64,000 nucleotides of DNA from assembly GCF_040054535.1 (NCBI RefSeq), contig NC_090795.1:6547501-6611500 (forward strand). The letters run 5' to 3'. Below the pieces are notes generated by a model. The model searched no databases. It had not been told where the DNA came from and saw only the letters and a list, made by a program, of their open reading frames with translations. The stretch is from Antennarius striatus. Lineage: Eukaryota; Chordata; Actinopteri; Lophiiformes; Antennariidae. A program made the position numbers and the translations under genes. Below are positions 13,217 to 26,522 of this stretch, piece by piece. Numbering within the stretch: the first letter of the stretch is position 1; every line of letters begins with the position of its first letter.

Positions 13217-16200
13217 ATGCTTCGCAGCGCAAAATCAGCACTGCTGAGGGCTAGTGCTGAGCTCGCTTACATCTGCCCGGTGTCCACGGTCCGGTTGGTT
13301 CCGCAGTCGCCACGCTACCCGCCCCTAAACAGGCCGTTTTCAACGTCGCCCTGCTTGAGTAAGAAGAAGCAGAAAAGCCTGTGGCTGCAGCTGGCGGAAG
13401 GACAAACCATGGACGGCGACATAGAGACGATTCTCGCCCCGTTGAGGCTGGCGGTCAAAGAACAGGTAACACTTGTTCTTGCGTTTGAAAATGATGCAGC
13501 CTGTTTGTTTAAGATTAGATAACCATTTATTGCTCTGCACTCAGTCCCGGTTAGCATGTTAGCTTGACCCGCTAATCGTACTGGATGCATATATGAAGCT
13601 GTCAATGAATGAATACGGACGTCGCCTGCTAGCTAGATGCTAACTGCTACCTGGCAAGCAGTCATGTCTGCGCCCTTTGCCACGTTTCAGTGCTGCTGCC
13701 GCAGCAGGCGTCTGTGGACAGGGCGGGGTTGAGAGGAGAGGCCGGGTTCAATCTGATTCAATAGCAGTAATAATCATAATAATAATAATAATAATCAGCT
13801 GATGACATTGTTAGCATGTAAGAATTAAAAGTTTCTGTTCTGTGTTTTAGGGGGAGCTTGTGCGCAAGTTGAAGCAGGATGGAGCCCCAGATGTGGACGT
13901 CACTAAAGCTGTTGCTGAACTGAAAGCAAGGAAGAGAAATCTGGAGGCTAAGGTCGGTGGAGCTAAACTATTGGTTTGCTTTTATTCTACTCGAGTTCTC
14001 TATGTTGTATCAAACTTTAAATGTTCAATCAGGTCTAACTTCACGGAAAAATTGGATTTGCGTTTTGTTGTCATCACATTTCTGACTTGTCCCATAACTC
14101 ATCAGGCTGTGCTTTGATATTGATTATACACTGATTAGTATTTGTAGGGTGTATTCACAAACATATGTTTACTGGTGCAAAAACACCACATTGACATCCA
14201 GATTGGGAAATGTGAAGAGTTTGTGGCAGGCTTGAATCAGGGATGTGCTCTGATGGATTTCAAAGATGTTACATCTTGCGAACATGGGGCTGATTTTAAA
14301 GTATATGAATCAGTCAGAGGTTTGACATCTCCAGGAAAAGGAATTTTTTTGGAACGTACTGTATTTTCAAAAAAACATATCTTGAAAAATCTAATTATAA
14401 TTCTCATATATACAGGAATTATCGTTACAACCCAAAGATGACATTGTCGACAGGGTCAAGATGGAGGATACCCTCAAGAGGAGATTCTTTTACGACCAGG
14501 CCTTTGCCATCTATGGAGGTGAGACTTAATTAAGAAAAAAAGGATTTTAAAAGGTGGATGTAAGTTTTTATACATCCCCTTTAAGCGTTCTGTTACCATG
14601 CAGTATTACTTCTCAGGTGTGAGCGGCCTCTTTGACTTCGGCCCTGTGGGCTGTGCCCTCAAGAACAACATCCTGCAGGTTTGGAGGCAGCACTTCATCC
14701 AGGAAGAGCAGATCCTGGAAGTTGAATGCACCATGCTGACCCCAGAGCCCGTCCTCAAGTAGGTGGTCTGTAATGATCATGTGCAACGATACAGAAGTGT
14801 TGCAGAGCTACACATGTGCTGACATCACGTAGGAGCCTTCTTAGTCCTCTCAAATCATCCAAAGTTTTTTAAGTCAATCCACTGGACTTAAATAAAGTTT
14901 CTTGAAGACGTTTCACCTCTCGAGAGGCTTCTTCAGTTCTGGTGATGGCAGATGTTGCCTCAACCACCACCAGAACTCACTATTACTGTATATCTTGGGT
15001 GAGAGGTGCAACATCTTCAAGGAACGTTCTCAAAGTCCAGTGGATTGATTTAAATAATTTTGGATATCCGTAACCCGGATGAGTGAGAGCCTACACAGAC
15101 TTCTCTCATATCAGTCTGTTATAGGTGCGAAACCGATGTTAATAGTTGTATCAGATTGAACAATGCTGTAGAGGGCGCCCGGTGGTTCCTAGAGTCGGCT
15201 CCAATGTGCTGAACTGTGGGTTTTTGTTAACGGGCACAAATTGATTCTGCAATTTTATGCATGGAAACTGTGATTCTAGCAGCCTTCCATAGCCCGGTTG
15301 CAGATACATCATTTAAACGGAGTTAAATACTACTAATTCCTATTTATAACGATTCTTATAACGTGCCTTATTTGATTATTTTTGCTTTAGGACATCAGGA
15401 CATGTGGAAAAATTTGCAGACTACATGGTAAAGGATTTGAAGAACGGTGAATGCTTCAGGGCTGATCATCTCCTCAAAGGTGAGCCGCTTCTATGTCCAA
15501 CTAACGTATTTAGAAGTTTGGCTTCCTGTATCGTACAGTCATCCTGAAAGCACCTCCAGCAGAGGTGTGTGTGAGTTTTTTATTTACGTAAGTCATGGGA
15601 TTCAGCAGACACCAGATGGCCACAGTCGAGACTTGTTGTCAGTCGCCACCGCTGCTGGTTGATCGAGGTCAGAGGTTCACTTTGTGCCTGAGGGAGAATG
15701 GAAGCTGCTCGACCAGTACCAACCACGCAGAACTGTCATAGCAATGCACACTAATGGAAGGACATGACGGGACTCGACAGTGTCACATTACCTGTGAATG
15801 ACACAAAGTTGGCTTTTTGACATCTCAGATCACCTCTAAAAATAAGTGTGTCCTGCTGATTATCTAAGAGTTTGTCTTTTGGCTGCAGGGAGTTAAATTA
15901 CGCTCTTTTCGTTTCCGATGCGCCACTAATTATTAAGTCAGAGGTGTTCGCAAAATTAATTCTATCTCACTATATCTTACAGCTCATCTCCAGAAGCTGA
16001 TGTCTGATAAGAAGTGTACAGCAGAGAAGAAGGCTGAGATGGAAGGAGTCATCACTCAGGTCAGCTTCGACTGAGAGCAGAGCTTCAAAAAACTTACATT
16101 TAAGAAGCTGGAACCAGTACAAATTTGAAATGTTTGCTGGGAAAATTACTGTGAAAAAAGAGAAGAAGGACCTCGATGAAGGATTTCTTTGCAATCCTTC

Positions 16201-26400: not shown

Positions 26401-26522
26401 CGTTGCAGGTCAGTGAGTTGCCAGAGGTGATTCGAGATCTGGCCAATGGTACCTTGATGTGGTCTGAAGTGGAGTGCAAGTACCCCATCTTTGTGGGACA
26501 GGAAACCAGCAGGAAGGAGTAA
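20418..26522 (+). CDS. Glycyl-tRNA synthetase, copy 2, predicted cytosolic only (676 aa)
   Basis: Tandem paralogue of gars1. Exons: 20418-20462, 20876-20977, 21103-21205, 21314-21455, 21549-21637, 22499-22575, 23086-23231, 23309-23458, 23532-23694, 24179-24343, 24428-24535, 25048-25193, 25277-25362, 25447-25556, 25662-25755, 26130-26320, 26409-26522 (2031 nt, one frame). Exons 2-16 have exactly the same lengths as in copy 1; only the first and last differ. Translation starts [15 protein letters not shown], directly in the WHEP domain. A stop codon three codons upstream rules out a contiguous mitochondrial presequence. Motif 2 is unchanged and motif 3 reads [16 protein letters not shown], so the enzyme is inferred to be active on cytosolic tRNA-Gly. 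Intron 11 is again AT-AC. The C-terminus is shorter (GQETSRKE). It is not a retrocopy, because all introns are kept, and no pseudogene lesion was seen. A name such as gars1b or gars1-like would be arbitrary. Confidence 0.95.
20743..20830 (-). repeat. Fragment of a ubiquitous teleost interspersed repeat in copy 2 intron 1
   Basis: The segment TGTGCCCTACCTCTGACCCA, followed by GTGGGATCAATTCC and CCCTGTGACCC, resembles a repeat common in fish genomes (consensus wording around 'accctgcctctcgccc...tgggataggctcc', from memory). It is degraded, and the same family probably supplies 61261-61540 in the other orientation. Confidence 0.5.
22628..23025 (-). repeat. Dispersed repeat, copy B, in copy 2 intron 6
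   Basis: Inverted copy of 12206-12614. It begins near CCTGCGACACCCCTGAAT and ends near ACTGACAATTAGAATACATC. It sits within the 510-nt intron 6 and is absent from the equivalent intron of gars copy 1, so the insertion postdates the gars duplication or was lost from copy 1. Confidence 0.75.
24536..25047 (+). other. U12-type AT-AC intron (intron 11 of gars copy 2)
   Basis: The intron starts with a perfect ATATCCTT donor after KEP and ends CACAC before AAA ([10 protein letters not shown]). The branch element CTCCTTAAC places its branch A at 25036, again 11 nt from the intron end. The intron is 512 nt against 119 nt in copy 1, so its interior has diverged freely while the minor-class signals were kept. 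Confidence 0.93.
25805..26060 (+). repeat. Degraded acanthomorph interspersed repeat in copy 2 intron 15
   Basis: Recognisable landmarks are AAATAGTTTGACAT near the start, GTTGGATGAGAAGA, TAAATATGAAGC and CTTAGCTTAGCATAAA, then CACCTCTTAAGCTGACT. I recall the same order from a very common repeat in spiny-rayed fish, which also supports the taxonomic inference. It has no coding content. Confidence 0.65.

Follow-up and report, generated by a model that had tools for sequence, protein, structure and literature searches.

Tandem glycyl-tRNA synthetase genes in Antennarius striatus: one copy with a dual-targeting start layout, the other without a visible presequence

The stretch of Antennarius striatus DNA analysed here (C20:6547501-6611500, contig NC_090795.1; 64,000 nucleotides, hereafter the window) has been found to carry two glycyl-tRNA synthetase (GlyRS) genes, gars copy 1 and gars copy 2, which follow one another head to tail, both in plus orientation, with 1,521 bp from the stop codon of the first to the start codon of the second. 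The arrangement is probably best explained by an old tandem duplication in which copy 1 is still dual-targeted and copy 2 provides an added cytosolic enzyme, perhaps controlled in another way. According to this model, a dual-targeted gars gene was duplicated and the duplicate retained by selection. Copy 1 would have kept the ancestral job, initiation at its weak Met1 giving the mitochondrial precursor, while ribosomes passing Met1 would start at Met65 and produce the cytosolic enzyme. The strong AUG of copy 2, placed at the WHEP domain, would direct the synthesis of extra cytosolic GlyRS, probably from a CpG-poor promoter of its own. Gene conversion would have re-homogenised exon 4 and exons 7-9 as both gene ends diverged.

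The exon models of the two genes were built by hand from the sequence and then checked by script. Copy 1 (13217..18896, plus strand) encodes 748 amino acids in 17 exons (13217-13465, 13851-13952, 14416-14518, 14617-14758, 15391-15479, 15983-16059, 16249-16394, 16472-16621, 16695-16857, 16993-17157, 17240-17347, 17467-17612, 17705-17790, 17968-18077, 18316-18409, 18492-18682 and 18771-18896). Copy 2 (20418..26522, plus strand), in which a presequence is not visible, encodes 676 amino acids, also in 17 exons (20418-20462, 20876-20977, 21103-21205, 21314-21455, 21549-21637, 22499-22575, 23086-23231, 23309-23458, 23532-23694, 24179-24343, 24428-24535, 25048-25193, 25277-25362, 25447-25556, 25662-25755, 26130-26320 and 26409-26522). 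Both copies are open from ATG to stop: neither is interrupted by a premature stop or a frameshift, every splice site is intact, and the phases of all 16 introns are identical between them. In each copy 15 of the 16 introns are GT-AG and intron 11 is AT-AC, of U12 type. Intron 11 occupies 17348..17466 in copy 1 (119 nt, plus strand, ATATCCTC ... TCCTTAAC) and 24536..25047 in copy 2 (512 nt, plus strand, ATATCCTT ... TCCTTAAC); despite the difference in length it begins with ATATCC and has the same branch site, TCCTTAAC, in both, the branch A lying 12 nt before the 3' end of the intron. Both genes therefore apparently require the minor spliceosome.

Both proteins were aligned without gaps to PDB chain 2q5h (glycyl-tRNA synthetase), presumably human GARS1, over residues 68-748 of copy 1 (681 residues) and residues 2-676 of copy 2 (675 residues); over 675 sites copy 1 is 85.0% and copy 2 80.7% identical to this chain. 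Class II motifs 2 and 3 are conserved in both copies, with 17 residues identical in the two and GIGR in place of the GLGR of chain 2q5h. Of the Pfam domains, WHEP, tRNA-synt_2b and HGTP_anticodon were found in this order in copy 1, each above its cut-off; in copy 2 the latter two also pass. By this end-to-end homology, motifs 2 and 3 included, both copies are glycyl-tRNA synthetases of the alpha2 type (GARS1). An earlier reading of the letters alone (the sequence-only reading) had described two complete 17-exon gars genes head to tail, 1.5 kb apart, with motifs 2 and 3 intact in both, and the script-checked models and the comparison with chain 2q5h bear out this description.

The 5' end of copy 1 has the layout expected for leaky scanning, namely a weak upstream AUG, a presequence-like stretch, no intervening AUG and a strong downstream AUG. 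Only two ATGs, Met1 and Met65, are present in 13100-13412, and they share one frame. Met1 stands in the weak context CGGTCC ATG C (T at -3, C at +4) and Met65 (13409..13411, plus strand) in the strong context CAAACC ATG G (A at -3, G at +4), so that the 64-residue extension and the ACCATGG start of the sequence-only reading are both confirmed. The extension itself (codons 1-64, 13217..13408, plus strand) contains 10 lysine and arginine residues and 2 aspartate and glutamate residues, as well as a single R-x-F-x-x-S motif at R39, a motif of the kind linked to two-step cleavage. A weak first AUG with leaky scanning has been described for GARS1 from human to budding yeast in the account given by PMC12718117. 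From its position, its composition and this precedent, the extension is likely to be a mitochondrial presequence, through which the long form of copy 1 would be imported.

The 548-Mb assembly (42 contigs, with both copies on the one contig C20) was searched with the copy 2 protein, and all 31 scored matches fall in this locus (best candidates scored, 25/25). No third gars gene or retrocopy was present among these 31 matches, which cover the best candidates only, so that a very divergent copy could escape. Because all scored matches lie here, copy 1 is, as far as seen, the sole visible candidate source of mitochondrial GlyRS in the assembly. A DNA search with 13217-13500 returned this segment itself and one ungapped fragment of 133 bp on contig C1, 79% identical. 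The fragment (L002:1501-1633; G000:C1:16033009-16033141, minus strand) is a sharp-ended copy of a portion of the presequence exon of copy 1. It has an in-frame stop, its differences are spread over the three codon positions (11, 8 and 9) and 7 of 12 CpGs are lost; for these reasons it was rejected as a second presequence gene and is read as a decayed relic. It lies near what appear to be cysteine-rich exons of an integrin beta gene.

Copy 2 begins at the WHEP domain with a strong start, GTCACC ATG G, and a TAA lies in frame three codons upstream (20406..20408, plus strand; TAA CGT GTC ACC ATG). No upstream in-frame start of the dual-targeting type is thus present in copy 2 on the genomic sequence as modelled. 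The sequence-only reading had noted this TAA and the absence of a presequence before the start, and had considered the cytosolic form to be encoded twice; the first point holds, and the other two are supported by the sequence. Its further statement that copy 2 can only be cytosolic is too strong, since an alternative first exon or read-through splicing from copy 1 exon 1 is possible. An upstream exon that would supply a presequence, for which it had also allowed, cannot be spliced directly before the copy 2 start, because AG is absent between the TAA and the ATG; what remains is a set of nine weak phase-0 replacements for exon 1. These came from a scan of the 47 ATGs between the copy 1 stop and copy 2 exon 2 for ATG-opened stretches of at least 12 amino acids with a donor score above -3. 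The scan dealt with splicing onto exon 2; five AGs from 20422 onwards, located at the beginning of exon 1 or within it, would be further possible acceptors. Besides two stretches beginning at the real start, the scan gave nine phase-0 stretches able to join copy 2 exon 2: four upstream of exon 1 (12-20 amino acids), one across exon 1 (96 amino acids, 20318-20605, with 13 lysine and arginine and 9 aspartate and glutamate residues) and four within intron 1 (13-23 amino acids). None of the nine makes a convincing presequence. The end of copy 1 exon 1 and the start of copy 2 exon 2 are also both in phase 0, and a read-through transcript could therefore fuse the two in frame. The nearest ATG upstream of the copy 2 start, at 20318, opens an out-of-frame reading frame which overruns that start (20318-20420 of the window); if it lies within the leader, it could dampen the translation of copy 2.

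The two copies have changed at different rates. With chain 2q5h as the outgroup, 28 derived sites were assigned to copy 1 and 57 to copy 2 out of 675 (binomial p 0.002), a further 22 sites differing in all three sequences. The asymmetry is also seen outside two highly similar tracts (exon 4 and exons 7-9, described below), with 24 derived sites in copy 1 and 49 in copy 2 among 474 (p 0.005), and when exons 1-2 are removed as well (19 and 36 of 426, p 0.03). Changes of copy 2 are concentrated in exons 1-2, which correspond to the WHEP part (13/48 vs 44/626 elsewhere, Fisher p 6e-5), and a weaker trend in the same direction is shown by copy 1 (5/48 vs 22/626, p 0.04). The net charge of this segment is -1 in copy 2 and +2 in both copy 1 and chain 2q5h. 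The derived changes of copy 1 in exon 11 are S416K, R420Q, E429T and P431L in the numbering of chain 2q5h. Copy 2 is the derived and faster copy, yet it is still constrained. For sites of deep conservation, 129 genome-contig stretches matched the pattern used, of which two encode distant relatives (Heimdallarchaeota and Hungatella), and no relative was found among viral contigs. At the 201 sites common to chain 2q5h and either Heimdallarchaeota alone or both relatives, copy 2 alone differs at 9 and copy 1 alone at 2.

Several points weigh against an added cytosolic enzyme beside a dual-targeted gene. The model has been drawn from sequence, and the derived sites are polarised by a single outgroup. 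Among 329 open 64-residue stretches of the window, 12% have a net charge at least as high as the +8 of the copy 1 extension, and 44% of 5000 shuffles attain the amphipathic moment of the extension, which does not stand above shuffled sequence in this respect. The alternative first exons of copy 2 belong here too. The WHEP domain of copy 2 scores 30.2 bits against a Pfam cut-off of 32.5 (E 4.6e-7), and at the 119 sites common to chain 2q5h, Heimdallarchaeota and Hungatella the residue is changed in copy 2 only at 5, in copy 1 only at 0 and in both at 1. The enzyme activity of copy 2, which the model takes to be expressed and active, may therefore be altered.

A full partition of the two tasks, as in tetrapod HARS/HARS2, would make copy 1 mainly mitochondrial by now and give the cytosol over to copy 2. 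Copy 2 alone could serve the cytosol, and the four exon 11 changes peculiar to copy 1 would suit such a shift, as would the HARS precedent, where mostly one cytoplasmic and one mitochondrial product are predicted in the part of PMC5608375 on this family. Nevertheless we regard this as unlikely: one would expect Met65 to have eroded or Met1 to have become stronger, whereas copy 1 has kept its strong Met65 together with its weak Met1 and is the slower copy. The suggestion of the sequence-only reading that the duplication had freed copy 1 to specialise for mitochondria consequently finds no support, the dual-targeting layout being retained in the copy with 28 as against 57 derived sites in 675.

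A specialised or non-canonical role of copy 2, as a GlyRS which has an altered WHEP domain and does not mainly serve bulk translation, is likewise improbable. The clustering of its changes in exons 1-2 (p 6e-5), the reversed charge of this segment and the WHEP score below the cut-off would fit such a role, and in the experiments described in PMC3990555 the Arabidopsis enzyme no longer gave rescue once WHEP had been removed. However, copy 1 also changes more in exons 1-2 (p 0.04), which argues that the domain evolves fast in any case; motifs 2 and 3 are conserved, and the two copies resemble each other in parts of the core; and in the same account human GlyRS without its mitochondrial targeting sequence (MTS) and WHEP was robustly active in yeast.

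Compared over 676 codons, the copies share 81.0% of their nucleotides and 84.0% of their amino acids, with a nonsynonymous divergence (dN) of 0.092, a synonymous divergence (dS) of 0.973 and a ratio of 0.095 between copy 1 and copy 2 (Nei-Gojobori). This average hides two classes of exon. The sequence-only reading had missed the highly similar tracts. Low dS is found in exon 4 (0.14), exon 7 (0.15), exon 8 (0.50) and exon 9 (0.82); among the remaining 13 exons, exon 16 has a dS of 0.72 and 12 stand at 1.06 or more or beyond correction (exons 11 and 15 beyond). The first tract is exon 4, 14617..14758 in copy 1 (plus strand), 96.5% identical to its counterpart at 21314..21455 in copy 2 (plus strand). 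The second takes in exons 7-9 with introns 7 and 8, at 16249..16857 in copy 1 and 23086..23694 in copy 2 (both plus strand), and was aligned by blastn from 16247-16867 to 23084-23704 at 90.8% over 621 bp. Within exons 4 and 7-9 and introns 7 and 8 the identity between the copies ranges from 85 to 97%. Introns 7 and 8 are 96.1% (74/77) and 94.5% (69/73) identical, about 0.35 above shuffled copies, whereas the other 14 of 16 lie within 0.08 of the shuffled mean (20 shuffles); five of these are about 0.07-0.08 above it, so that faint intron homology may be left there. At third positions the best segment is codons 82-294, with 45/213 differences against 255/676 overall, a contrast reached in 0/20000 shuffles; it includes both tracts and the divergent stretch between them. 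The segment ranking second, codons 610-637, falls short of significance (10122/20000 shuffles).

The similarity is best read as the outcome of gene conversion, with two or more tracts in the catalytic core of an old tandem pair. Selection on synonymous sites could instead have kept exons 4 and 7-9 alike, and the similarity around exon 4 does end at the exon boundaries; this is quite unlikely, since introns 7 and 8 are 96.1% and 94.5% identical while the other 14 are not alike, and where introns have lost their homology a tract can extend no further than the exon ends. That the pair is an assembly artefact or a decaying duplicate is scarcely credible, even though tandem copies are a usual place for assembly errors and copy 2 evolves faster, because 12 of 17 exons have a dS of at least 1.06 or beyond correction, 14 of 16 introns are about as similar as shuffled copies, both copies lie on a single contig and reading frames and splice sites are intact; the haplotig duplication which the sequence-only reading had entertained is thereby excluded, with an overall dS of 0.973 and introns alike in only 2 of 16. 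Three-taxon branch lengths outside the tracts are 0.083 for copy 1, 0.158 for copy 2 and 0.101 for the outgroup. A clock reading of these lengths would give an age of hundreds of millions of years, but duplicates accelerate, which unsettles such a reading.

Several features hint that the two copies are under separate control. The observed/expected ratio of CpG near the copy 1 start is 1.05 in 13117-13416 (98th percentile of the window) and 1.40 in 13017-13316 (99th percentile); before copy 2 it is 0.52 in 20118-20417 (70th percentile) and 0.60 in 20218-20517 (79th percentile), with a maximum of 0.74 within 19300-21000. Each gene has a poly(A) signal, at 19234, 338 bp past the copy 1 stop, and at 26820, 298 bp past the copy 2 stop. 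A CARE/ATF4-like octamer was noticed at each gene and is taken as a lead only: TGATGCAA at 20264..20271 (plus strand), 154 bp upstream of the copy 2 ATG, and TGATGAAA at 13184..13191 (minus strand), 33 bp upstream of copy 1 Met1. The motif TGATGNAA is not enriched in the window (23 occurrences vs 20.9 expected), one occurrence lying within 160 bp of each start. GARS1 is named as an ATF4 target in PMC10592355.

Two observations concern the surroundings of the pair. An interspersed repeat is present in two copies, 82% identical and in opposite orientation, at 12192-12629 upstream of copy 1 and at 22610-23032 in copy 2 intron 6; genome-wide it gave 4385 first-look candidates, of which 40 were scored. 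Among 10 open reading frames scanned, the neighbours in 31900-49478 encode a protein with two MBOAT matches (below the Pfam cut-off), a BTB-BACK protein and a BTB zinc-finger protein, the last from the minus strand. The three are hhatl-like, klhl40-like and zbtb47-like in this order; the human genes are placed at 3p22, with GARS1 on human chromosome 7, and a difference in synteny is a lead only.

The closest known arrangement is that of GRS1 and GRS2 in Saccharomyces cerevisiae, also described for Vanderwaltozyma polyspora, in which one gene is dual-targeted by alternative initiation and more conserved, and the other has no suitable alternative initiator and is more divergent, according to the accounts in PMC3306390 and PMC3990555. 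Similarly, fish copy 2 has no presequence or alternative start on the genomic sequence as modelled and is the more divergent gene (57 vs 28 derived sites in 675, and 49 vs 24 in 474 outside the tracts). PMC3306390 reports that the yeast GlyRS2 proteins lack an insertion and share about 60% identity both with GlyRS1 and among themselves; the fish pair, in contrast, is in tandem, appears to have undergone gene conversion and is 84% identical. In the data summarised in PMC3306390 and PMC3990555, heat, peroxide, ethanol and high pH induce GRS2 of S. cerevisiae. For copy 2 such induction would be no more than a possibility, the sequence offering only the CARE-like octamer and the CpG-poor 5' region. 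Tentatively, a vertebrate may have re-evolved a tandem form of GRS1/GRS2, with a dual-targeted housekeeping GlyRS and a cytosolic-only copy induced by stress or in certain tissues; conversion would keep parts of the core alike while the targeting end, the WHEP domain and the C-terminal regions drift, and in-frame read-through splicing that joins the presequence exon of copy 1 to exon 2 of copy 2 could yield a third, mitochondrial form. We regard this proposal as possible but less likely than not.

GARS is given in PMC5608375 as one of three human synthetase families without separate cytosolic and mitochondrial genes. In other publications, dominant GARS1 mutations are described as causing a neuropathy. 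A vertebrate with an extra cytosolic GARS copy would let the cytosolic and mitochondrial jobs be separated genetically. The pair is, moreover, a natural test of what becomes of a dual-targeted gene after duplication, the dual copy being conserved and the other diverging, with conversion-like tracts in part only.

Among vertebrates, Table 3 of PMC5608375 gives a single GARS gene each for human and zebrafish. Copy 1 resembles such a single GARS1 in the order of its parts (presequence-like end, second start, WHEP domain, core, anticodon domain), the difference being that two gars genes are present here. Among the titles listed by the literature searches there was no paper on a duplicated vertebrate GARS, though genome annotations may well list both copies. 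The passages of PMC5608375 on HARS report several independent duplications of this gene in vertebrates and a back-to-back arrangement of HARS and HARS2 in mammals. A dual-targeted synthetase gene has been duplicated in both cases, but the tagged copy of the fish keeps its cytosolic start, with Met65 intact in ACCATGG. In Dictyostelium, as presented in PMC12718117, TRNT1 paralogues with and without an MTS replace one dual-localised gene; this is another enzyme, split by gene, and the account concerned does not mention an internal cytosolic start. The principle of the arrangement is known from yeast, and what appears to be new is its tandem occurrence in a vertebrate, with conversion-like tracts.

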